Source of the DNA: Spirochaetota bacterium
GTDB lineage: Bacteria > Spirochaetota > Spirochaetia > Treponematales > UBA12059
Direction of reading: 5' to 3'
Length of the DNA stretch: 33,927 nt
NCBI GenBank assembly: GCA_018816345.1
Contig: JAHIWG010000007.1
Span: 1-33,927 of the forward strand
Under the pieces are notes generated by a model. That model saw nothing but the letters and a program-made list of their open reading frames with translations. It searched no databases and was not told the DNA's origin. Shown here piece by piece: positions 9,905-29,003 of the stretch. Positions within the stretch are counted from its first letter, which is position 1, and every line of letters starts with the position of its first letter. Made by a program: the position numbers and the translations under genes.

Positions 9905-11251
9905 ATGAACGCTTATATCCGCGAGGTCCTCGATGGCCTCAAGGCCCGTGCTCCGTGGGAGTCCGAGTTCCTGCAGGCCGCCGAGGAAGTCCTCGAGTCG
10001 ATAGCCCCGCTTATCGAGAAGGACCCCAAGTACAAGGCCCAGCGCATACTCGAGCGCATCGTCGAGCCCGAGCGCACCATCATGTTCAGGGTGCCCTGGA
10101 TGAACGACAAGGGCGAGTACATCGTTAACCGCGGCTATCGCGTTCAGTTCAACAGCGCCATCGGCCCGTATAAGGGAGGCATCCGCTTCCATCCGAAGGT
10201 GACGCTCTCCACCCTCAAGTTCCTAGGATTCGAGCAGACGTTCAAGAACAGCCTGACCGGCCTCCCGATGGGCGGCGGCAAGGGCGGCGCCGACTTCGAT
10301 CCCAACGGAAAGAGCGACAACGAGATCATGCGCTTCTGCCAGAGCTTCATGAACGAGCTGTTCCGCCACATAGGCCCCGACACCGACGTTCCCGCCGGGG
10401 ATATCGGCGTGGGCGGGCGCGAGGTCGGCTACATGTTCGGCCAGTACAAGCGCCTGCGCGACGAGTTCACCGGCGTCCTTACCGGCAAGGGCCTGTCCTT
10501 CGGCGGCTCGCTGATCCGCCCCGAGGCGACCGGCTTCGGAGCCATATACTTCACCGAGGAGATGTTCAAGCTCAAGGGCGAGACCCTCGCGGGCAAGACG
10601 ATCTCCGTCTCCGGCTTCGGCAACGTCGCCTGGGGAGCCTGCATCAAGGCCAGCCAGCTGGGGGCCAAGGTCGTCACCGTCTCCGGGCCCGACGGCTACG
10701 TCTACGATCCCGACGGCATCAACACCCCCGAGAAGCACAAGTACCTCGAGGAGATGCTCGTCATAGACCGTAACCGCGTCGAGACCTACGTCAAGAAGTT
10801 CCCGAACGCCAAGTTCTTCGCGGGCAAGCGACCCTGGGAGCAGAAGGTCGACATAGCGATGCCCTGCGCCATCCAGAACGAGCTGTCCGGCGAAGACGCC
10901 CAGGCCCTCGTGAAGAACGGCGTGCAGGCCGTCGTCGAGGTCTCCAACATGGGCTGTACGCCCGAGGCCTGGAAGCTCTTCATCGAGAAGAAGATCCCGT
11001 TCGCCCCGGGCAAGGCCGCCAACGCCGGCGGCGTCGCCACCTCCGGCATCGAGATGAGCCAGAACTCCATGCGCCTCGCGTGGACCGCGGAGGAAGTAGA
11101 CAAGCGCCTCCACGACATCATGATCTACATCCACCAGAACTGCATCGACACCGCCAAGGCCTTCGGGGCCGAGGGCAACTACGTGGTCGGCGGCAACATA
11201 GCCGGCTTCAAGAAGGTCGCCGACGCTATGATCGCCCAGGGCCTGGTATAA
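9905..11251 (+). CDS. gdhA: Glutamate dehydrogenase, hexameric family
   Basis: The 448-residue protein has the normal length for bacterial hexameric glutamate dehydrogenases. It shows PMGGGKGGADF with the catalytic-type lysine K126, GPDTDVPAGDIGVGGRE in the active site, and a Rossmann segment SVSGFGNVAWGA. The reaction is 2-oxoglutarate + NH4+ + NAD(P)H to glutamate. The SGPDGYVYDPDGI after the Rossmann strand resembles, from memory, the NAD-dependent Clostridium symbiosum enzyme, so cofactor choice is open. The ATG at 9905 is set by a strong SD, AAGGAGGG (9894-9901); longer in-frame starts overlap the promoter. It is monocistronic, with its own promoter and terminator. Confidence 0.96.
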   Translation: MNAYIREVLDGLKARAPWESEFLQAAEEVLESIAPLIEKDPKYKAQRILERIVEPERTIMFRVPWMNDKGEYIVNRGYRVQFNSAIGPYKGGIRFHPKVTLSTLKFLGFEQTFKNSLTGLPMGGGKGGADFDPNGKSDNEIMRFCQSFMNELFRHIGPDTDVPAGDIGVGGREVGYMFGQYKRLRDEFTGVLTGKGLSFGGSLIRPEATGFGAIYFTEEMFKLKGETLAGKTISVSGFGNVAWGACIKASQLGAKVVTVSGPDGYVYDPDGINTPEKHKYLEEMLVIDRNRVETYVKKFPNAKFFAGKRPWEQKVDIAMPCAIQNELSGEDAQALVKNGVQAVVEVSNMGCTPEAWKLFIEKKIPFAPGKAANAGGVATSGIEMSQNSMRLAWTAEEVDKRLHDIMIYIHQNCIDTAKAFGAEGNYVVGGNIAGFKKVADAMIAQGLV

Positions 11252-16378: not shown

Positions 16379-17392
16379 CTAGAGGCTCCCTACCGCGCCG
16401 AAAAGAGCCCGCACGAGGGCGTGCGCGTCGTCGGCGCGGCACGCGAAGGATACGGCGTCGGGATCAGGGGGCGAGCGCCGGCGGGAAGCGACGGCCGCGC
16501 CGCGGGCTTCCGCGGCCTCTCCGGCCCGCCTGAGGACCTCAGCCGCGCGGCCTGGCCTGCAGATGACCGACACGACGGCCTCGCCGCCGTCCTTGACCGA
16601 CGCTATGCCGAGCAAGGCTGGCGCGTCCGCGGGCAGGGGCTCGGCGCTGACGAGGGTGCCTAAGCCCTCGTCGAACGTCGAGCGCACGCGTATCCTGACG
16701 CCGAAGCGCTCGCCTAGCACGGCCGACCGGTCGTGGAGCACGCGCGCCCCGTTGGAGGCGAGGCGGTACATGGACCCGTAGTCGAGCCGTTCGAGGAACG
16801 GCGCCTCCGGGACAATCCTGGGGTCGGCAGTCGCGACGCCCGGCACGTCGGTGTAGATGTCGACGAAATCGGCCTTGGCGTAGGCGCCGACGGCGACGGC
16901 GCTGGTGTCCGAGCCTCCGCGGCCTATGGTCACGATGCCCCCGTTGGGGCTGACCGCTTGGAACCCCGTCACGACGGGCACGGCGCCGGAGTCGAGCACC
17001 GCCATGACGCGGTCGACGTCCACGTCGCTGACCTCGGCGTCGCCGTAGGGGCCCGAGGCGCGGATGCCGGCGGAGTAGGCGGTGAGCGGGACGGCCTTCG
17101 TGCCCCTCGCCGATAGGAGCGAGGCGACGAGGCAGGCGGAGATAGTCTCGCCGCAGGAGGCCATCAGGTCGCGCACGAGGCCGTCGGACTGGCCCGAGCC
17201 GACGGGGGCCGGCTCGAGGAGGCCGAGCAGGGTATCGGTCGCGTACGGAGCGCCCTTCCGGCCCATGGCGGATACGACGACGACGATCCTATCGCCCGCG
17301 GCCCTCGCGGCCTCCACCTTACGAAGCATGCGCTCACGGGCGTCAGGGTCGGCGACCGACGTCCCTCCGAATTTCTGTACGATGAAGGCCAC
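16379..17392 (-). CDS. lysC: Aspartate kinase, short form
   Basis: Aspartokinase makes aspartyl-4-phosphate, the first step to lysine, diaminopimelate, threonine and methionine. The 337-residue protein opens with VQKFGGTSV (5-13). The kinase core ends with GRGGSDTSAVAVGAYAKAD and YTDVPGVATADPR (about 157-192). After the kinase domain only some 85 residues remain, with one ACT-like unit (PALLGIASVKDGGEAVVSVI); typical enzymes have about 400 residues and two ACT units. Feedback control may therefore be altered. The GTG at 17392 has AGGGAG upstream. It lies 10 nt behind asd in the same operon. Confidence 0.9.
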   Translation of the reverse strand: MAFIVQKFGGTSVADPDARERMLRKVEAARAAGDRIVVVVSAMGRKGAPYATDTLLGLLEPAPVGSGQSDGLVRDLMASCGETISACLVASLLSARGTKAVPLTAYSAGIRASGPYGDAEVSDVDVDRVMAVLDSGAVPVVTGFQAVSPNGGIVTIGRGGSDTSAVAVGAYAKADFVDIYTDVPGVATADPRIVPEAPFLERLDYGSMYRLASNGARVLHDRSAVLGERFGVRIRVRSTFDEGLGTLVSAEPLPADAPALLGIASVKDGGEAVVSVICRPGRAAEVLRRAGEAAEARGAAVASRRRSPPDPDAVSFACRADDAHALVRALFGAVGSL

Positions 17393-18574: not shown

Positions 18575-21541
18575 ATGTACTTCAACGAACTGGTCGCCTC
18601 GTACGATAGGGAGCGCCACGAGCGCGATATCTTCCACGACCTCATGCGGAACCGGGTGCGCGAGATTCTCCTCGTCGCCAGCCTCTACGACTCGTTCGTG
18701 CTCGAGAGCGACGGCGCCCTGTCCGAGCAGATATACGGGGAATTCTTCAAGCTGAACCTGACGACCGCCCCCCGCGTCACCTGCGCGTACACGCCCGAGG
18801 CGGCCATAGAGATGTTCGGGGCCGGCGGCTTCGATATGGTCATCCTGATGGCCGGCCTGGACTTCGACGTCCCTCTCGCCCTGGCCAAGCGCATGAAGTC
18901 GGTCTGGCCCAACGTCCCCGTCCTCCTACTGGCGATGAACAACTCGAGCCTCGCCGGCCTCGGCTCGGGTCGCCTGAGCTGCGACGACGTCATAGACAGG
19001 GTCTTCGTCTGGAACGGCTACTCCAAGCTGTTCGTCGGCATGATCAAGTACGTCGAGGACCGGTGGAACGTCGATAACGATACCCGCGTAGGCATGGTGC
19101 GCGTCGTGCTCCTAATCGAGGACTCCGTCCGCTACTACTCGCGCTACCTCCCTCTCCTGTACTCGGTCGTGATGAAGCAGACCCAGCAGCTAGTCGAGGA
19201 GGAGAAGTCGGTCGAGACGTATAAGATCCTCAGGATGAGGGGACGTCCAAAGGTGCTCCTGGCCACGAGCTACGAGGAGGCGATGTCCCTCTACGAGCGC
19301 TACGAGCCGTACCTGCTCACGGTGATCTCCGACGTGCGCTTCGGGAATGAGGGGGTCGAGGACCCGGAGGCGGGCTTCCGCTTCCTCGCCATGACCAAGC
19401 AGCGCAAGCCCGACCTGCCCGTGATGATTCAGTCGAGCGAGCCGGACAACCGCGAGAAGGCGTACGCGCTCGGCGCCTCGTTTGCCGATAAGAATTCCAA
19501 CACCCTGGCCCGCGAGCTCGGTAAATTCTTCCAGTCTCAGCTTGGATTCGGCCCCTTCGTGTTCCGTAACCCAGAGGGAGAGGAGATATCGAGGGCGAGG
19601 AACATGGACGAATTCGGCGAGCAGATGCGCGCCGTGCCCGCGGAGAGCCTCCTCTATCACGCCGACCGCAACCATTTCTCGGCCTGGCTTATGGCCAGGG
19701 GCGAGGTCCGCTTCGCCAGGATAATACGCAACTACCTCCCCGAGGACTTCTCCGGGCCCGCGGAGCTCCGCGACTTCATATGCCGCGCCCTGGACGATCT
19801 CCAGCGGGGCAAGGCCCGCGGGGTTATACCGGCGGTAGGCGCCTCCACGGCGGACAGGGGCCTCTCCCGGCTAGGCGGGGGCTCCGTCGGGGGCAAGGGC
19901 AGGGGGCTGGCCTTCATCAAGAGCCTGATCGATAACCTCGCCTTCCCCAAGGCCCAGAACGGCATGGAGATACGCCTTCCGTATACCGCGTTCATAGGCA
20001 TAGACGAATTCGAGCGCTTCATGGACCAGCACGGCCTATGGGGCTTCTCGTGGTACGCGGCGCCCGAGTCCGAGGTCAGGAAGGCCTTCCTCGCCAGGCC
20101 CCTCGACCCCGAGCTCGTCTCGAGGCTGCGCGCCTTCCTTTCGACGACCGACAAGCCCTTGGCGGTCCGTTCCTCCGGCCTCTTCGAGGACATGCTGATG
20201 GTGCCGTTCTCCGGCGTGTACGATACCTTCCTAATACCCAACGCCGATCCCGATCCCGAGCGCAGGCTGGGACAGCTATGCGACGCCATCAAGCTCATCT
20301 ACGCAAGCCTCTATTCCGAGTCCGCCCGCGCCTATTTCGACGTCGCCTCGTACAAGATCGAGGAGGAGCGCATGGCCGTCGTAGTGCAGGAGCTCGTAGG
20401 GAGGCGGAAGGGTCGATGGTACTATCCGCTCGTCGCGGGCACCGCGCAGTCGTACAACTACTATCCGGTGTCGTACCTGAAACCCGACGACGGCCTGTGC
20501 GTCGCCGCCCTCGGGCTGGGGCCGTACGTGGTCGAGGGCGGGGAGGCGCATCGGTTCTCGCCGCGTTACCCCAAGCTGGACGTCGTGGCCCCCGGGCGCG
20601 GTACGAGCGGCACGCAGAGGTGGTTCTACGCCCTCGACATGGAACGCCTCGACTTCGACCTGTCGGCGGGCGAGGAGGCGACGCTGTCCAGGCTCGACCT
20701 GTCCGAGGCGGAGGCCGATCCCGGCTTCGCGACGGTCGCCAGCACCTGGAGCGTGGACGACGACCGCCTCGAGCCCGGCGTGTCAGCGCGCGGGCCTAGG
20801 ATCCTCGACTTCGCCCCGGTGCTGAAGTACGACGCGTTCCCGTTCGCCGCCGTCGTCGACGCCGTCCTCGAGGTCGGGGCCAAGAGCATGGGCATCCCGG
20901 TCGAGATAGAGTACGCGATAAGCGACGACGGCCTTGGCGGCGCTCCCGTGTTCTACGTATTGCAGATCAAGCCGCTAATCCAGCACGCGGGCCGCTTGGA
21001 AGTGGATATAGACGGCGTCGATACGGCCGACTGCCTCATTGTCTCGGAGCGGAGCATGGGCAACGGCAGGGACGAAACGATCCGCGACGTCATATGGGTC
21101 GATCCCGAGCGCTTCGACCGGTCCAGGACCGAGGCCATGGCCCTCGAGATAGAGGCGATCGACCGGGAGCTCAAGGCCCTCGGCAGGCGCTACGTGCTCA
21201 TCGGCCCCGGTCGCTGGGGCACGAGGGACCGTTGGCTAGGCGTTCCCGTATCGTTCTCCCAGATATCCAGCGCCAGGGTCATAGTCGAGGCCGACCTGCC
21301 CGACTTCCGCGTCGACTCCTCGCTGGGCAGCCATTTCTTCCATAACGTCACCAGCATGAACATAGGCTACCTAACGGTACCCTGGGGGGGCGGCGCGGGC
21401 AAGGTCGATTGGGCCTGGCTCGCGGGCCTGCCCGTCGAGCGGCGTACCGAGAGCTGCGTCTGGGCTAGCCTGGCCTCGCCCCTCGACATCGTCATGGACG
21501 GGAAGCGGGGCCGCTCGATCGTGCGGAAGCCGCGATCCTAG
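18575..21541 (+). CDS. Receiver-PEP/pyruvate-binding (PPDK_N) hybrid protein
   Basis: The 988-residue protein has three parts. Residues about 29-150 look like a degenerate receiver fold. Residues about 175-320 look like an intact receiver, with ED at 182-183, D253, S287/S288 and K306. Residues about 430-805 match the ATP-binding domain of PEP synthase/PPDK: GGGSVGGKGRG (434-444), VRSSGLFED (531-539), VEIEYAI (776-782) and VLQIKPL (795-801). The remaining ~180 residues carry GPGRWGTRDRWLGVP (877-891) and GSHFFHNVTSMNIGYLTV. I find no swivelling phospho-histidine domain (no GG-x-x-SH motif) and no PEP-binding barrel, so it cannot be a complete PEP synthase. Similar proteins exist in Bacteroidetes as I recall, without known function. 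The protein could be an ATP-dependent phosphotransferase controlled by phosphorylation (inference). Confidence 0.75.
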   Translation: MYFNELVASYDRERHERDIFHDLMRNRVREILLVASLYDSFVLESDGALSEQIYGEFFKLNLTTAPRVTCAYTPEAAIEMFGAGGFDMVILMAGLDFDVPLALAKRMKSVWPNVPVLLLAMNNSSLAGLGSGRLSCDDVIDRVFVWNGYSKLFVGMIKYVEDRWNVDNDTRVGMVRVVLLIEDSVRYYSRYLPLLYSVVMKQTQQLVEEEKSVETYKILRMRGRPKVLLATSYEEAMSLYERYEPYLLTVISDVRFGNEGVEDPEAGFRFLAMTKQRKPDLPVMIQSSEPDNREKAYALGASFADKNSNTLARELGKFFQSQLGFGPFVFRNPEGEEISRARNMDEFGEQMRAVPAESLLYHADRNHFSAWLMARGEVRFARIIRNYLPEDFSGPAELRDFICRALDDLQRGKARGVIPAVGASTADRGLSRLGGGSVGGKGRGLAFIKSLIDNLAFPKAQNGMEIRLPYTAFIGIDEFERFMDQHGLWGFSWYAAPESEVRKAFLARPLDPELVSRLRAFLSTTDKPLAVRSSGLFEDMLMVPFSGVYDTFLIPNADPDPERRLGQLCDAIKLIYASLYSESARAYFDVASYKIEEERMAVVVQELVGRRKGRWYYPLVAGTAQSYNYYPVSYLKPDDGLCVAALGLGPYVVEGGEAHRFSPRYPKLDVVAPGRGTSGTQRWFYALDMERLDFDLSAGEEATLSRLDLSEAEADPGFATVASTWSVDDDRLEPGVSARGPRILDFAPVLKYDAFPFAAVVDAVLEVGAKSMGIPVEIEYAISDDGLGGAPVFYVLQIKPLIQHAGRLEVDIDGVDTADCLIVSERSMGNGRDETIRDVIWVDPERFDRSRTEAMALEIEAIDRELKALGRRYVLIGPGRWGTRDRWLGVPVSFSQISSARVIVEADLPDFRVDSSLGSHFFHNVTSMNIGYLTVPWGGGAGKVDWAWLAGLPVERRTESCVWASLASPLDIVMDGKRGRSIVRKPRS

Positions 21542-21573
21542 CCGGAGGACGCCTCGCTCCTAGCCGGACGACG
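21536..21573. repeat. 22-bp-period duplication carrying both stop codons
   Basis: TCCTAGCCGGAGGACG (21536-21551) recurs as TCCTAGCCGGACGACG (21558-21573), with 15 of 16 bases equal. The first copy holds the plus-strand stop TAG (21539-21541). The second holds the minus-strand stop of the response regulator (21560-21562). Only 18 nt separate the two convergent genes, and no terminator is visible. Confidence 0.7.
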
Positions 21574-21955
21574 ACAGCAGCCTGCGGCACTCCCGCATCA
21601 GGGCCCGCACGTTCCACGGCTTCCCGAAGAACGCGTCGAGCGTTCCCCCGGAGCGGAGCCTGTCCAGGTGCTCGGCCTCGACCTGACCCGAGACCATGAC
21701 GGTCTTGACGTCGGGATGGTCCGCCCTGACGAGCTCGATGAACTCGTCGCCCTTCATGCCCGGCATCAGCCAGTCGGAGATGACGAGGACTACCTTGACT
21801 CCCGCCGCGTCCAGTTCCTCGATCGCCTCGAGGCCCTCGGTCGCGTCCCTGGCTATCTCGTACCGGAAGGAGGGGCCGAGCTCGGTCCTGAGGTCCTGGC
21901 GTAGCGCGAGGAGTATCAGGGGCTCGTCGTCGACGAGCAGTATAGCCTTTTCCAT
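21560..21955 (-). CDS. Single-domain response regulator (CheY-like)
   Basis: The 131-residue protein is a lone receiver domain without an output domain. All key residues are present: acidic pocket DDE (9-11), phospho-acceptor D61 in VISDWLMPGMKG, S89 in VMVSGQ, and K112 in FFGKPW. It starts directly after the kinase stop (TAG then ATG, no spacer), so the two are co-translated and almost certainly form a pair. Output must go through another protein; the facing receiver/ATP-grasp protein and the nearby chemoreceptor are candidates by position only. Confidence 0.92.
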   Translation of the reverse strand: MEKAILLVDDEPLILLALRQDLRTELGPSFRYEIARDATEGLEAIEELDAAGVKVVLVISDWLMPGMKGDEFIELVRADHPDVKTVMVSGQVEAEHLDRLRSGGTLDAFFGKPWNVRALMRECRRLLSSSG

Positions 21956-23779
21956 CTATGGTTCCCCCGGGTCGGGCTCCCGGGGAGCCGACGGTACTAG
22001 TATCCTGAACTCGGTCCTCCCCGGCTCGCTATCGAATAGTATATCCCCGCCGTTCTCCCGAGCCAGCCGCCTCGCGACGCTCAACCCCAGGCCCATGCCC
22101 TCGCCGTACGCCTTCGTCGTGTAGAAGGCCTCGAAAATCCTGTGCCGCGAGCCCTCCTGGATGCCTCGGCCCGTATCGACGACGGAGACGGCTATCAACT
22201 CGCCTTCCCGTCGCGTCGCGATCGTGACCTCTCCGCCTTTCTCCTCGGACTGCACGGCCTGGACCGCGTTGCTCACTACGTTGAACAGCGTCCTCTCGAA
22301 GTCGTTCTCCCTCGTGAAGGCGACGAGCCCCGCGCCCGCCTCGACGCTGAGCGTGGCCCCGCGGCCCAGCGCGCCCTGGAAAAGCGCCAGGACGGCTCGG
22401 ACCGCGCCCGCGACGTCGACCCGCCGCGGCTCGTCCCCGGAGGAGCCTGCCCCGTAGTTCCTCAATGCGCCGACGACGCGGGCGGCCTTCTCGACGGCGT
22501 CCTCGGTTATGTACGCGGCCCTTATCGCTCCCACCGTAGCCCGGAGCACCAGCATGAAGTCGTCGGCGCCCGGCTTCTTGAGGACGGGAATAGCCGCGGC
22601 TATCGACGCCCCGAGGCCGCACTCTATGAGGTCCTCGGCCTTCATGTCCGGCTCGGCGACGCCCGCGGCGCTGAGAGCGGCCGAGGCCTTCCTCCGAGCC
22701 TCGCGCTCGCCGGGCGGATCGACGGCCGTGGCCCCGGAGCGGTCGTCGCCCAGGTTCCTCCTAGCGAGGCGCAGCAGCCCGAGTGACTCTGAATCCAGCC
22801 TGGCCGCGATGAGCCCGATCTCGTCCAGGCCCCGTTCGAGGAACGCCTTCATGGACCGGTTCGACGCGTCTATCGCGGCGAGCGGGGTATTGAGCTCATG
22901 GGCGACGCTCGCCGATATCCGCCCGAGCGTAGCGAGCTTCTCCGAGACGAGCGCCCTGTCCTGAGCCTCCTTGAGATCGCCTAGCGCGCGCTGGAGCGCC
23001 CCGTTAGCGGCCTGGAGCTCGAGGTTGGTCATGGATAGCTCTTCGGTACGCGCTGCCACCTTGTGCTCTAGCTGCGCGTTTAGCTCGGAGAGCGCCGTCT
23101 CCGCCCGCTTCCTCTTCTCTATGTCCGTAGCGGCCCTATCAAGTGCCTTGGCGGTAATGCCGTGGATGCTGAAGCCGAGTATGCCTACCAGGGATATCGC
23201 CAGAGTGTTATCCGCGAGATAATCCCAAAAATCGGCGGGCGCGAGACCCATGCCGGGAGCCTCGAGCAGCATGAATACCCATAGCGCCGCTATATTCGCG
23301 GCGGCGTATAGGAGTATCGGCCACTTCCGCGAGGAGACGGCTAGAGGAGAGATGCACAGTATGGCGATGACGAACGCGATCGAGTCGAGCCGTACTACGG
23401 CGCCCGATGCCCTGCCTAGGAACATCACGAGCCATACGCTCGCGAGCGCGGTGGAGAGGAGCAGGTGGGCGCCCGCGGCGAAGCGGCCGGAGCCAAGTAA
23501 GGCTAGGGCCGCCGCGGTCGAGAGCAGCGCGGCCAGCTCCGCGACGAGGACCGGCGGGTTCACGGAGAATCCGCCCGCCGGATCGCTACGCTGGATGATA
23601 GCGCTGTATCCCAGGACGAGTACGGTGAACGCGAGCATCGACGCCCCGAGGATCATCAGGAAGCGGGCCTTGAGCCTCGTCGCGAAATCGGCCGGGCCGA
23701 AATTCATATGCAGGCGCCAAAGCAGGCTCTTCCTGCCCGACCCCGTCGCGTTCCACCCGTCCTCGCTTGATTCGCCCAT
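21956..23779 (-). CDS. Six-TM sensor histidine kinase
   Basis: From ATG 23779 the protein is 607 residues. About six membrane helices fill residues 40-210 with only short loops. A coiled coil follows (about 215-285; ALSELNAQLEHKVAARTEEL). The H-box is ISASVAHELNTPLAAI with phospho-acceptor H294. The ATP-binding domain has an N-box NVVSNAVQA (about 500), DTGRGI and GMGLGL. Membrane-borne signals or ions are likely inputs because there is no large periplasmic domain. Start is uncertain: ATG 23779 would be leaderless given the promoter at 23786-23815, ATG 23707 removes 24 residues, and TTG 23815 lies in the promoter. None has a clear SD. The stop abuts the regulator's ATG. Confidence 0.88.
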   Translation of the reverse strand: MGESSEDGWNATGSGRKSLLWRLHMNFGPADFATRLKARFLMILGASMLAFTVLVLGYSAIIQRSDPAGGFSVNPPVLVAELAALLSTAAALALLGSGRFAAGAHLLLSTALASVWLVMFLGRASGAVVRLDSIAFVIAILCISPLAVSSRKWPILLYAAANIAALWVFMLLEAPGMGLAPADFWDYLADNTLAISLVGILGFSIHGITAKALDRAATDIEKRKRAETALSELNAQLEHKVAARTEELSMTNLELQAANGALQRALGDLKEAQDRALVSEKLATLGRISASVAHELNTPLAAIDASNRSMKAFLERGLDEIGLIAARLDSESLGLLRLARRNLGDDRSGATAVDPPGEREARRKASAALSAAGVAEPDMKAEDLIECGLGASIAAAIPVLKKPGADDFMLVLRATVGAIRAAYITEDAVEKAARVVGALRNYGAGSSGDEPRRVDVAGAVRAVLALFQGALGRGATLSVEAGAGLVAFTRENDFERTLFNVVSNAVQAVQSEEKGGEVTIATRREGELIAVSVVDTGRGIQEGSRHRIFEAFYTTKAYGEGMGLGLSVARRLARENGGDILFDSEPGRTEFRILVPSAPREPDPGEP

Positions 23780-23785
23780 ATCAGG

Positions 23786-23815
23786 AGTATCGGCCCGTCC
23801 AATGGCCCGAGTCAA
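23786..23815 (-). promoter_or_regulatory. Promoter of the kinase-regulator pair
   Basis: On the minus strand TTGACT (23810-23815), an 18-nt spacer and GATACT (23786-23791) form a good sigma-70-type site. Only six bases separate the -10 from the ATG at 23779, suggesting either a leaderless mRNA or initiation at the later ATG 23707. Confidence 0.5.
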
Positions 23816-23849
23816 ACAATTCCGCGGGCCCGGTCTATCGCGGCGCCTC

Positions 23850-25472
23850 CTACGCCTCTCCGAGCGTCCTGACCTCCGCGTCGAGGGCCGACAGGTGACG
23901 GCCGTTCTCCTCCCCGAGCGTCCTTACCGTCCTCGCCTCCGCGAGGATACGATCGAACGACGCGGAAAGCTCGGAGAGCCTGGCTCGCAGGGCCACGGTA
24001 GCGGACCTTACATCCGCGGTGCCGTCGCGGCTCTCCTCGTCGGCTCGCCGAAGCTCGCCCAGGGCCGATTCGACGCGCCCTCCGGAGAGCCCGATGCCCG
24101 CCGCCGCGTCGCGTATCTCGCGGACGCTCGTATCGAGCGTGTCGATGCGGGAGAAGAGCTCCTCGACGGATCGCAGGAACTCGCCCGTCTCCGCTCGGGT
24201 CGACGCGAATCGCTCCCTCGCCCCGGCGTTGAGCGTCGCGGCCTTCGCTATGTCGAGCGCGGCGGTCTTGAGCGCCGTCCCAATATCCTTGGCGTTCTTG
24301 TTCGCCGTCTCCGCGAGGTTCCTCACCTCGTCGGCCACCACCGCGAAGCCGGAACCGGCGGCCCCGGCGTGGGCGGCCTCGATGGCGGCGTTCATGGCGA
24401 GCAGGTTGGTCTGCGAGGCTATCTTGGCTACGGCCCCGACCTGGTCGAGTAGCCCCGAGGTCCTCGACGCTATGGCTTCGATGGCCGCGGCCGATGCTGC
24501 TATCGCCTCGTCGGCCGCGACGTACTTCGTCTCGAGCCGCTCCATCCTGCCCCTGCGGTCGCTGGAGAGCGCGGCTACGGAACCGGAAAAGGCGCCGATC
24601 TTCTCGAGCGATTCCGAGGTGCGCTCGACCTCGCCGCGCTGCTCGCCCAGGGCCACCTCGACGGCGTCGCCCTGCGCCTTTACCTTCTCCGAGGCTCGCG
24701 AAAGGTCCTCCGCCGCCTCCGCGAGCCGCTTTGACTGCGCGTCTACCTCCGCGAGGCCCCGTTGGCTGTCCTCGGCGAGCGAGATCTGGTTCGCGGCGCT
24801 CGCGCGGAGGCCTTCGCCTATTTCCAGGCCTTCCCTGGATTTTCCCAGGACGTCGGCGAGGGCCGCGGCGCGCCTCGAGTTGGCTTCCGATTCCTCCATG
24901 GCCAAGGACAGCGACTCCCCGTTAGACTTCATGGCGAGGAACGCGAGCGCCGATCCCGATATCACGCAGAGCGCCGCGATGGCGAGGTTGTCGAGCGGCG
25001 TCGTCTCGGGGGCTGATTCCAGGAACGGGCGGACTCGCAAGATGAAGTGCGCGGCCAGGGACGCCAAGGAGACGGCTCCGACGGCCAGGCATTGGTACGG
25101 GCGCTGCATCAGGAGAGCGGACTCGAAGAGCACGATAAGCAGGTACACGGCGTATTCATACGACTCGTAGGGGTCGGGCCGGGGATCCGCGTAGAGCAAC
25201 AGCGATAGCGCGATCCAGCTGAACGCGACGGTGAACATTCCCGCGGCTACCCGTCGTCCCTTGAAGAGGAGGAAGATGGATATCGCGAACGGCAAGCCGG
25301 TAGCCAGGTTGACGAGCGCCAGCGCGTCCGGCTGGGATACGACCCGTCCCGCCCCGTAAAGCAGCATGGCGCCGCTTAGGACGACGTTGATGACTAGGAG
25401 GACGCGAGCCTTGCCGGCGGCGCCGTAGCCGCTATCCTTATATAATGAATCGAGCCTGGTACCGCCAATCAT
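23850..25472 (-). CDS. Six-TM methyl-accepting chemotaxis protein
   Basis: From ATG 25472 the protein is 540 residues. Six hydrophobic helices lie at about 24-42, 51-70, 75-94, 106-122, 128-146 and 160-180, with no large periplasmic sensor. A long helical region follows, and the MCP signalling tip [20 protein letters not shown] then [16 protein letters not shown] is at 351-389. Chemoreceptors of this kind drive CheA/CheW kinase complexes to steer flagella. I chose ATG 25472 because the -10 element at 25520-25525 rules out the longer TTG start; the only SD-like sequence is GGGGG (25481-25485). It lies upstream of, and in the same direction as, the kinase with a 70-nt gap, and its membrane layout resembles that of the kinase. 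Confidence 0.9.
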
Positions 25473-25519
25473 GCTAAGAACCCCCAGGGACACTGTACCA
25501 GACGTATATTGAGTACGCA

Positions 25520-25525
25520 ATTATA
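25520..25525 (-). promoter_or_regulatory. -10 element of the chemoreceptor gene
   Basis: A consensus TATAAT reads on the minus strand, 47 nt upstream of the ATG at 25472. No convincing -35 hexamer lies at 16-18 nt; the DNA there is the GC-rich repeat region. The element may rely on an activator or on T-rich flanking sequence. Confidence 0.4.
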
Positions 25526-25697: not shown

Positions 25698-27257
25698 ATG
25701 GATCCACGTTCTATCGTTAAAAGCCTCCACCCGCTCGAGATCAAGGTTCTCCTCCATTACGCGCCGGGGGACGGCCTCGATTCCGGCCGCTTGGCGGCCG
25801 AGCTCGGCTACCTCGAGGGGCACGCCAACCAGGCCCAGGCCTGGCTTACCGCCAAGGGCCTCGCCTCCGAGACGGGCCGGTCCTCCAAGTCGGTCTTCGA
25901 GTTGACGCCCCTCGGCAGGGCCTGGCTGGAATCGGGCACGCCCGAGGAGCGCATGGTCGCTTTCCTAGCGAAGAACGGGCCTTCCGCGATGCCGGCTATA
26001 TGCCAGGCCATAGGAATGGAGCAGAAGGACGCGGGTTCCGCGTACGGCAGGCTTTCCAAAGAGGGCGTTCTCTCCATGAGCCCCGAGAAGCTCGTTTCAA
26101 TAGCGGACGCCTCCCGCTCCAAGCGGTCCGCCGCGATGAGGGCCCTGCTCTCCAAGGCCGCGGCGGCCGATAGCGGCATCCTAGGAGAGTCCGACCTCGA
26201 CGCCTCCGAGGCCGCCCTGATGGCCGAGGTCGCCAAGAAGCGTGGCTCGGGCGATGCGGCGTTCCGCTCCGCCGAGCGCGAGACGGTTACCTGGGCCCTC
26301 GCCGGAGAGGCCGCCGAAGTGGCCGCGATCCTCCGCGAGACGGGCGTCTCCGGCGACGAGCTCGGCGCGGTGACCCAGGCGATGCTCGAGGACGGCTCCT
26401 GGAAGGGCGCGGCATTCCGCTCATACAATATTAAGAGCCGGCCGGCCCGCCTCATACCAGGACGGCGCAATCCCTACGTCCAGTTCCTCGAGAGCGTCAA
26501 GGATAAGCTCGTCTCGCTCGGCTTCGAGGAATTCGACGGCGGGCTCGTCGAGACGGAGTTCTGGAACGGCGACGCGCTGTTCATGCCCCAGTTCCACTCC
26601 GCCCGGGATATCCACGACGTCTACTACCTGGCCGAGCCTACGAAGGCCAGGTCGATCGAGGAGCCGTACCTGTCGAGGGTCGCCGCCACGCACGAGAACG
26701 GAGGCGCGACCGGTTCCCGCGGCTGGCGCTACGGCTTCGACCGCGAGTTCACCAAGCGGCTCGTGCTCCGCAGCCAGGGCACCGTGCTCTCCGCCAGGCA
26801 GCTGCCGAAGGCCTCGATACCCGGCAAGTATTTCGGCATCGCCAGGTGCTTCCGCTACGATAAGGTCGACGCGACCCACTTGTCCGACTTCTACCAGACC
26901 GAGGGAATAGTGCTCGGCGACGACGTGAGCCTTAAGACGCTCCTCGGGTTCCTCGAGATGTTCGCCGTCGAGGTCGCGGGGGCCAAGGAAGTCAAGTACG
27001 TCCCCGGATACTTCCCCTTCACCGAGCCTTCGGTCGAGGTGCACATCAAGCACCCCGTGCTCGGCTGGTTCGAGCTCGGCGGCGCCGGCATCTTCCGCCC
27101 GGAGGTCACCGAGCCCCTCGGCGTCAGCGTGCCGGTGCTCGCCTGGGGCATAGGCATAGACCGCATGGCGCTGATGGCCCTCGGCCTCAACGACCTCCGC
27201 GAGCTGTTCAGCTACGATATCGAAGACGTGCGCCTCAGGCGCGCCCTCGTGAGATAG
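25698..27257 (+). CDS. pheS: Phenylalanyl-tRNA synthetase alpha subunit, archaeal type
   Basis: The 519-residue protein is much longer than the usual bacterial PheS (about 330-350). It has the archaeal/eukaryotic layout: winged-helix-like N-terminal modules (about 1-210; LHPLEIKVLLHYA, FELTPLGRAWLESG) and a class II catalytic core. The core shows motif 2, IARCFRYDKVDATHLSDFYQ, and a motif 3 region with GIGIDRMALM. It charges tRNA-Phe together with PheT. GGAG (25688-25691) precedes the ATG by 6 nt. PheRS of spirochaetes is known to be of archaeal type through ancient transfer. pheT follows after 42 nt. Confidence 0.95.
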   Translation: MDPRSIVKSLHPLEIKVLLHYAPGDGLDSGRLAAELGYLEGHANQAQAWLTAKGLASETGRSSKSVFELTPLGRAWLESGTPEERMVAFLAKNGPSAMPAICQAIGMEQKDAGSAYGRLSKEGVLSMSPEKLVSIADASRSKRSAAMRALLSKAAAADSGILGESDLDASEAALMAEVAKKRGSGDAAFRSAERETVTWALAGEAAEVAAILRETGVSGDELGAVTQAMLEDGSWKGAAFRSYNIKSRPARLIPGRRNPYVQFLESVKDKLVSLGFEEFDGGLVETEFWNGDALFMPQFHSARDIHDVYYLAEPTKARSIEEPYLSRVAATHENGGATGSRGWRYGFDREFTKRLVLRSQGTVLSARQLPKASIPGKYFGIARCFRYDKVDATHLSDFYQTEGIVLGDDVSLKTLLGFLEMFAVEVAGAKEVKYVPGYFPFTEPSVEVHIKHPVLGWFELGGAGIFRPEVTEPLGVSVPVLAWGIGIDRMALMALGLNDLRELFSYDIEDVRLRRALVR

Positions 27258-27299
27258 GCCCCGGCGATAGCCGCAGCATAATCGATTTGGAGAACCCGA

Positions 27300-29003
27300 A
27301 TGCCTAAGATAGAAGTGAACGAGAACCTGTTCTTCGAGCTCGTCGGCCGACGCATGGAAGCGGCCGAGCTGGAGGCCGCCTTGGAGACCGCCAAGGCCGA
27401 GCTCGACGGCTGGGACGCGGACGGCCCCGCCGACGGCCGTACCATCAAGATAGAGCTGAACGACACCAATAGGCCCGACCTGTGGTCGACGGCCGGCATA
27501 GCCCGCCAGCTCCGGGTCCGCGCCGGCGGGGCCGTTCCCGAGTATCCTTTCTTTTCGCGTGAGGGCGAGGCCCGTCCCTCCGAGTACCGCGTCGTCGTGG
27601 ACGCGTCGATACGCGAGCTACGGCCCTTCATGGCCGGGTTCGTCATCTCCGGCAAGGCGATAAGCGACGCCATGCTCCGCGACGCCATCCAGACGCAGGA
27701 GAAGCTGTGCTCCAACTTCGGGCGCAAGCGGCGCTCGGTATCCATGGGCATGTACCGCATAGACCTTATCAAGTGGCCCGTCGCCTACAAGGGCGCGGAC
27801 CCCGACTCCGTCTCCTTCACGCCCCTGCAGGCCCAGGAGCGCATGACCCTCCGGCGCATCGTCGCCGAGCACCCGAAAGGCAAGGAGTACGGCCACATCA
27901 TCGCGGACTCGCCCGTGTACCCCGTCCTGATGGGCGCCGACGGCGGCGTGCTCTCGATGGCCCCGGTCATCAACTCCGCCGACATAGGCGCCGTCCAGGT
28001 AGGCGACCGAGACCTCCTCGTGGAATTCACCGGCACCGACATGGCCGCCGTCTGCCTCTCGGCCAATATAGTAGCGTGCGACTTCGCCGACGCCGGTTAC
28101 GCGATCAAGCCGCTCCGCGTCGACTACGCCTACGATACGCCGTTCGGCCGATCGGTGACCTTCCCGTACTACTTCCAGAAGCCCGCCTCCGTGGATTCCG
28201 GCCGGGTAACCAAGCTCCTCGGCGATAATATCGGCCCCGAGGCCGTCGTCGAGGCGCTCGCAAGGATGGGCGTCCGCTCCGAGGCCCACGGTCAGCACGT
28301 CCGCGCCTATCCGCCGGAGTACCGAGACGACTTCATCCACGCCGTCGATCTCGTCGAGGACGTGATGATAGGCCGGGGCATGGCCAGTTTCGCGCCGGAA
28401 CGCCCCCGCGACTTCACGATAGGGCGCCTTTCCCCCGTAGAATCGTTCACCAGGAAAGCCAAGGACGTGATGGTGGGCCTCGGCTACCAGGAGATGATCT
28501 ACAACTACCTCGGCTCGGGCAAGGACTACATCGAGCGCATGAACGTCCCCGCCGACGGCGTCATACGCATATCCAACCCCATGACCGAGAATTTCGAGTA
28601 CGTCAGGCCGTCGATACTGCCCGGGCTCATGCAGTCGGAGGCGGTATCTAGCAAGGCCCCGTATCCCCACCGCATATTCGAGGCCGGCAAGGTCGCTTTC
28701 CTCGACGAGACCCAGAATTACGGTACCTCCACGAGGCAGCGCGTCGGTTTCCTTTGCTCGCACCAGGGCGCGGATTATAACGAGCTGGCCGGGGAAGTCG
28801 CGGCCTTGCTGTATTACCTGGGCGAGGACTACGCCGTCGAGGAGTCGGACGATCCTCGGTTCCTGCCCGGCAGGCAGGCGAGGATAATGGTGCGCGGCGC
28901 CGGCGTCGGCTTCTTCGGCGAGGTCCATCCCGCGGTGCTGGAGAATTGGGGCGTGACCATGCCCTGCGTCGCTTGCGAGCTCGACCTGGAATCTCTCATA
29001 TAA
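27300..29003 (+). CDS. pheT: Phenylalanyl-tRNA synthetase beta subunit, archaeal type
   Basis: The 567-residue protein is the short archaeal-type PheT; bacterial-type subunits are near 800 residues with an N-terminal tRNA-binding-like (EMAP) and a C-terminal anticodon (FDX-ACB) domain, both absent here. It begins MPKIEVNENLFFELVGRR. It contains the B3/4-like editing region (MAGFVISGKAI, MGMYRIDLIKWPV) and ends in a class II-like fold (HPAVLENWGV). A GGAG SD (27289-27292) lies 7 nt before the ATG. It forms the heterotetramer with PheS and holds the editing site. The acyl-CoA synthetase gene follows after 15 nt. Confidence 0.95.
   Translation: MPKIEVNENLFFELVGRRMEAAELEAALETAKAELDGWDADGPADGRTIKIELNDTNRPDLWSTAGIARQLRVRAGGAVPEYPFFSREGEARPSEYRVVVDASIRELRPFMAGFVISGKAISDAMLRDAIQTQEKLCSNFGRKRRSVSMGMYRIDLIKWPVAYKGADPDSVSFTPLQAQERMTLRRIVAEHPKGKEYGHIIADSPVYPVLMGADGGVLSMAPVINSADIGAVQVGDRDLLVEFTGTDMAAVCLSANIVACDFADAGYAIKPLRVDYAYDTPFGRSVTFPYYFQKPASVDSGRVTKLLGDNIGPEAVVEALARMGVRSEAHGQHVRAYPPEYRDDFIHAVDLVEDVMIGRGMASFAPERPRDFTIGRLSPVESFTRKAKDVMVGLGYQEMIYNYLGSGKDYIERMNVPADGVIRISNPMTENFEYVRPSILPGLMQSEAVSSKAPYPHRIFEAGKVAFLDETQNYGTSTRQRVGFLCSHQGADYNELAGEVAALLYYLGEDYAVEESDDPRFLPGRQARIMVRGAGVGFFGEVHPAVLENWGVTMPCVACELDLESLI

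Follow-up and report, generated by a model that had tools for sequence, protein, structure and literature searches.

Here, we describe a sensor-bearing, PEP-synthase-like dikinase of 988 residues that is probably a previously undescribed switch for ammonia assimilation, the genes of its homologues in three bacterial phyla lying recurrently beside that for glutamate dehydrogenase (GDH). In anaerobes, including gut Bacteroidota, GDH is a main entry of ammonia into metabolism, and to our knowledge it is not understood how the enzyme is controlled after translation in these bacteria, in contrast to glutamine synthetase; no such control was found in the literature searched. The coupling described here points to a candidate regulator, to the histidine likely to form its active site and to the enzyme that it partners. 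The gene is an uninterrupted reading frame, present in one copy in its genome, within a window (the whole stretch of DNA that was analysed) of 33,927 nucleotides from a Spirochaetota bacterium, and its main features, together with the GDH gene, are as follows:

18575-21541, plus strand: the whole gene, 988 residues, with the architecture REC-REC-PPDK_N-swivel, from the open reading frame, homologues and Pfam
18650-19063, plus strand: receiver 1, degenerate (residues 26-163), from alignment with the PorX receiver (Z 11.9) and conservation
19094-19561, plus strand: receiver 2, intact (residues 174-329), from structural alignment (Z 12-13) and conserved residues
19331-19333, plus strand: codon of Asp253, the predicted phospho-acceptor of receiver 2, from conservation
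19592-19786, plus strand: DUF5752-like helical linker (residues 340-404), from a weak Pfam match
19883-20986, plus strand: PPDK_N ATP-grasp domain (residues 437-804), from Pfam (E 4.3e-29), conserved residues and structural alignment
20987-21538, plus strand: probable diverged swivelling phospho-histidine-like domain (residues 805-988), without a Pfam name, from fold prediction and structural matches
21332-21334, plus strand: codon of His920, the predicted phosphorylated histidine, in the motif S-x-G-[ST]-H-F-F, from its invariance and its place at a helix N-terminus
9905-11251, plus strand: GDH, 448 residues, NADP-type, family I, the conserved genomic partner, from a PRK09414 equivalog match over cut-off

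An earlier note had read this protein as a PEP-synthase-type ATP-grasp domain under the control of an intact receiver, with a second, degenerate receiver alongside, and this domain composition is borne out. Receiver 2 (residues ~174-329) gives Z 12-13 (up to 13.3) against solved receivers and has the acidic pair, phospho-Asp, Ser/Thr and Lys of a two-component receiver, E182, D183, D253, S287 and K306 being kept in 71-73 of the 73 full-length REC-PPDK homologues. Receiver 1 (residues ~26-163), for which the PorX receiver is the structural match, is degenerate because Met92 occupies the position where the phospho-acceptor Asp of the pattern PDLVLLD would be expected. Pfam gives a weak receiver match in the window protein (residues 217-301), the PF00072 score being under the Pfam cut-off, and PF00072 was matched in 20 of the 20 family members scanned; the DUF5752-like linker, also weak in the window protein, was matched in 16 of 20 (best E 2.1e-5). 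The ATP-grasp domain scores 102 bits against a PPDK_N cut-off of 27, and residues 416-805 of the model align structurally with RPH (5hv1, Z 26.3), PEP synthase (PEPS; 2ols, Z 26.2) and 5hv6_A (Z 23.9). Its listed residues are K441, R532, E538/D539, Q605, E777, E779, Q797 and K799, of which K441, R532, E538/D539, E779 and Q797, like His920, are unchanged in all 96 sequences from four subfamilies. At residue 799 (codon 20969-20971) a Lys takes the place of the Q-x-R-P Arg in 50 of the 54 receiver-type proteins in alignment A1, the Arg being retained in the other subfamilies. The whole-protein AlphaFold model, built on a 54-sequence alignment, has a mean pLDDT of 82.5 and a pTM of 0.67.

The remaining C-terminal block is probably a strongly diverged phospho-histidine domain. 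When residues 805-988 (184 residues) were folded alone, with 96 family sequences in the alignment, the model (pLDDT 91, pTM 0.89) took up a swivelling beta/beta/alpha fold, whose best VIA-align match is the His domain of RPH (5fbu, Z 7.1 over 112 residues at 3.4 Å); further matches are the pyruvate kinase C-terminal domain (3t05, 6.5), PPDK (5jvn, 6.4), the isolated phosphoryl carrier domain of PPDK (2fm4, 6.3) and Enzyme I (2wqd, 5.9). Phospho-His-type domains account for each of the leading 13 rows, with Z scores of 5-7.1 that lie below 8 and are each weak alone, but the assignment becomes probable because the order of domains, the order of secondary structure elements and the invariant His920 support them. 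In the whole-protein alignments the correspondence extends beyond the ATP-grasp domain, residues 416-987 of the model aligning with 9-511 of PPDK (1dik, 343 residues) and 432-987 with 4-467 of PEPS (2ols, 356 residues). His920 forms the N-terminal end of the helix that follows strand 900-906, which is the position of the catalytic His in the matched families, and the elements run beta-YVLIGP, short helix, beta-RVIVEA, loop, helix from His920, beta-GYLTV and a later MDG, matching the PPDK order KVILVR...GILTA-GGMTSH-helix-beta...DG. His920, S916, G918, R880, W881 and E905 are invariant in 96 of 96 sequences, despite only 20-40% identity between the four subfamilies over this domain.

The divergence is such that a Pfam search gave no PF00391 match in the 988-residue protein, where SxGSHFF replaces the GGxTSHAA signature of that family. 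Foldseek with the isolated domain returned no match under E 0.001, its top rows (chitinases and peroxiredoxins, TM 0.2-0.3) being rejected as chance, and profile comparison with the PPDK and Enzyme I His domains recovered just a non-significant 13-column DGxxG segment (probability 0.3%), the PPDK profile obtained from relatives being too narrow (Neff 2) for alignment of the core. The earlier statement that the protein has no swivelling histidine domain is probably wrong; a hidden phospho-histidine domain in the C-terminal ~180 residues, which the same note had itself named as telling against its reading, is apparently there in strongly diverged form. We consider it likely that this is a working phospho-His domain. 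Other remarks on this region hold: GPGRWGTRDRWLGVP is present in the C-terminal block and largely invariant, and there is no PEP/pyruvate barrel, the protein lacking a PF02896 match and stopping after the single 184-residue domain.

Full-length homologues number 54 in scans of the genome collection and of relatives, at 34-83% identity (Spirochaetota 53-83%, Riflebacteria ~46%, Bacteroidota mostly 42-47%). In one bin labelled Betaproteobacteria the copy is typically spirochaete-like (55% identity) and is accompanied by GDH, and the label is probably the result of mis-binning. The ATP-grasp/His core is constant across the family, while the N-terminal input varies between receivers, GAF-like repeats, other domains and none. 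Receiver-type proteins are of ~990 residues, with some Bacteroidales members of 1300-1560 residues bearing repeated GAF-like domains in front; core-only proteins of ~580 residues have no receivers; ~870-residue proteins join an unrelated N-terminal domain to the core; and ~1065-residue proteins have a GAF-like N-terminus, the core and a C-terminal pol-beta nucleotidyltransferase domain. ‘GAF-like’ is here a reading from sequence, with no naming Pfam or PDB match. In an hhalign comparison the N-terminal modules of the 1065-residue and long Bacteroidales types proved homologous (probability 99.6, E 1e-23), while those of the 870- and 1065-residue subfamilies gave no match to the receivers and nothing significant against PDB sequences. 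The swapping of input modules around a fixed core is typical of signalling outputs and suits a regulator.

The ~1065-residue PPDK_N proteins adjoin a second, archaeal-type GDH (L108:5143-8334, L098:2257-5478, L101:1707-4901 and L109:1808-4990), and both of those scanned with Pfam, in L108 and L098, have a C-terminal NTP_transf_2 domain; we know of no description of PPDK_N combined with NTP_transf_2. Another PEP-utilizer family, of ~880-930 residues (G000:C144:9193-9411 and relatives), recurs in this order with a weak PF00391 match (~40 bits), one member, in G029, lying 7.6 kb from a GDH.

A functional link between the dikinase and GDH is very probable. An initial survey of neighbourhoods gave a single cluster that was widespread, a 448-residue protein found at 19 loci in Spirochaetota, Bacteroidota and Riflebacteria, which is hexameric GDH; a divergent neighbour cluster, c17, was rejected as shadow ORFs. 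When 198 Bacteroidota and 198 Spirochaetota genomes were searched for both genes, GDH lay within 5 kb of 79 of 100 dikinase genes, against a chance expectation of about 0.6% per gene. The counts were 28/33 for full-length, 8/9 for core-only and 13/18 for ~1065-residue genes in Bacteroidota, and 8/10 for full-length and 22/30 for ~870-residue genes in Spirochaetota; for some homologues no GDH is within reach, in part because of contig ends. Spirochaetota genomes with the core have GDH in 37 of 37 cases, as against 121 of 198 overall (p 9e-10), and family-I GDH occurs in 26 of the 26 Bacteroidota genomes that carry the full-length form, as against 61 of 198 (p 5e-16), both values being nominal because the genomes are related by shared ancestry.

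Evidence from rearrangement and from the pairing of paralogues is independent of these p-values. GDH may precede the dikinase on the same strand (with gaps of -16 to some hundred bases), follow it, or be divergent from or convergent with it, so the link has survived rearrangement. The tree distances of the two proteins correlate at 0.68, where the maximum of 2000 shuffles was 0.19, and for the five genomes that hold two GDH-dikinase pairs the actual partners gave the best fit among 32 possible swaps. In the Bacteroidota L178, L179, L180, L181 and L182, tandem cassettes lie together in a single cluster, two dikinases having their own GDHs, and L182 has one family-I GDH flanked by two dikinases. 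Receiver and 870-residue types pair mostly with the ~450-residue NADP-type GDH, and core-only and 1065-residue types with the ~430-residue archaeal-type enzyme.

In the window, the GDH gene, a partner that the earlier note had missed, lies 7.3 kb upstream of the dikinase, separated from it by a GntR regulator, a short M29-like ORF, a TctCBA tricarboxylate transporter, aspartokinase and aspartate-semialdehyde dehydrogenase; in the relatives L005, L013, L003 and L048 the distance is about 0-1.3 kb. The aspartokinase (16379-17392, minus strand), beside asd, has 337 residues where ~405 are usual, which may mean a reduced regulatory (ACT) part at its C-terminus. On the other side, a response regulator, a histidine kinase and a chemoreceptor-like gene (21560-25520, minus strand), unseen there in relatives, sit between the dikinase and an archaeal-type PheS/PheT pair (25698-29003, plus strand; PRK04172, pheT_arch) that is conserved downstream in many Spirochaetota relatives. 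The facing kinase-regulator pair (21560-23815, minus strand) had been put forward as the partner, but the neighbourhoods of homologues show no recurrent cluster of this kind and pheS comes next in many close relatives, so it was rejected as the cognate pair.

Taken together, these features suggest a mechanism in which a histidine kinase would phosphorylate Asp253 of receiver 2, as the intact active-site residues indicate, and the phosphorylated receiver would switch the ATP-grasp domain to phosphorylate His920 of its own swivelling domain, a step to which the conserved catalytic residues, the domain order and the fold all point. The phospho-His would then be presented to an acceptor in trans, which the genomic coupling suggests is most likely GDH, altering its activity. 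That the acceptor acts in trans is suggested by the lack of both the barrel of PEPS and the rifampin site of RPH, and the external acceptor that the earlier note had offered as one option for a protein without a substrate barrel is judged probable; a further pointer to covalent control of an enzyme of ammonia assimilation is the nucleotidyltransferase domain of the 1065-residue type. Within the same scheme, a conformational change may act on GDH instead of the phosphate. We put at about even the chances that this is a sensor-gated dikinase that autophosphorylates on His920 and regulates GDH, most likely through phosphoryl transfer to that enzyme. Covalent phosphotransfer to the GDH protein itself is a tentative proposal, somewhat short of even, and a shade more tentative is the fuller version in which GDH is covalently modified by the swivelling phospho-His and two-component and GAF-like sensors thereby tune the assimilation of ammonia in Bacteroidota, Spirochaetota and Riflebacteria. 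No residue both unique to and invariant in dikinase-partnered GDHs, as a candidate acceptor would be, was found; the partial enrichments in these enzymes (E219, 96% versus 40%; M389, P41 and P64) are confounded by ancestry. Direct phosphorylation of GDH, if true, would represent a new class of protein kinase.

Since the characterised PPDK_N relatives that have a His domain (PEPS, PPDK and RPH) all phosphorylate or activate small molecules, and NCBIfam matches include the PigC and RedH ligases, the phosphate of the phospho-His might instead be passed to a GDH-linked small molecule (2-oxoglutarate, glutamate or a derivative), with GDH adjoining as its maker or user and the receivers and GAF-like domains regulating flux. 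This we think unlikely, as the swivel domain comes directly after the ATP-grasp with no substrate domain, the swapping of sensory modules fits a regulator, and among the homologue neighbourhoods no further metabolic gene was seen to recur beside the pair across phyla. Equally unlikely is an ATP or energy sensor in which the ATP-binding core serves GDH as an allosteric partner with no stable phosphotransfer: the change of Arg to Lys at 799 in receiver-type members and the departure of the His motif from the usual form would suit it, but binding alone does not need the conservation of K441, R532, E538/D539, E779, Q797 and His920 across the 96 sequences.

The separation of GDH by 3-7 kb in the window and some relatives, where the two genes do not share an operon, leaves room for shared expression only, the gene reporting nitrogen or energy status and acting on some other target. 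We regard this as less probable still, given that the link persists when gene order changes and when the cassette is duplicated, the paralogue trees then matching, and that the receiver-less and nucleotidyltransferase-bearing subfamilies move to the second GDH type.

The architecture itself has been noticed before. REC-PPDK fusions were noted as ‘Bacteroides-like’ response regulators by Galperin et al. 2018 (PMC5847659), and PPDKs are listed as effector domains of aspartate-less receivers (PMC4395418); the window protein is of the same architecture class and apparently of the same family. In the passages of these two papers that deal with it, the fusion is listed with no His domain, GDH link or function given, in keeping with the earlier note's description of a known architecture with no assigned function. 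Our literature search likewise found no function for REC-PPDK, no link to GDH and no recognition of the His domain. An older study, Baggio & Morrison 1996 (J. Bacteriol. 178:7212), refers by its title, as given in the references of PMC4539542, to trans-acting gene(s) downstream of the Bacteroides gdhA that affect GDH activity, which the dikinase linkage may explain.

Among known systems, PEP synthase and PPDK (PF01326 + PF00391 + PF02896) have the PPDK_N catalytic pattern of the dikinase and, after it, a swivelling beta/beta/alpha domain bearing a His at a helix N-terminus, of which the C-terminal block of the dikinase is probably the counterpart; they differ in having the PEP/pyruvate barrel, whereas the dikinase has a probable His domain too diverged for Pfam to recognise, a pair of receivers at its front and GDH as its genomic partner. 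RPH (5hv1/5fbu) is the best structural match of both the ATP-grasp (Z 26.3) and probable His (Z 7.1) domains, but the dikinase has no rifampin-binding domain, residue 804 running straight into the swivel-like domain, and adds a regulatory N-terminus. GlnE and GlnD are nucleotidyltransferases, with a pol-beta type domain, that modify GS and PII. As dedicated covalent regulators of an ammonia-assimilation enzyme they offer a parallel, and the ~1065-residue paralogue of the dikinase carries a pol-beta nucleotidyltransferase domain of its own, although the chemistry and core fold of the dikinase differ and its target would be GDH. What emerges is a candidate for a dikinase core of the PEPS/RPH type turned regulator, in which the REC-PPDK fusion was already known and the GDH link and the probable His domain are the new parts.
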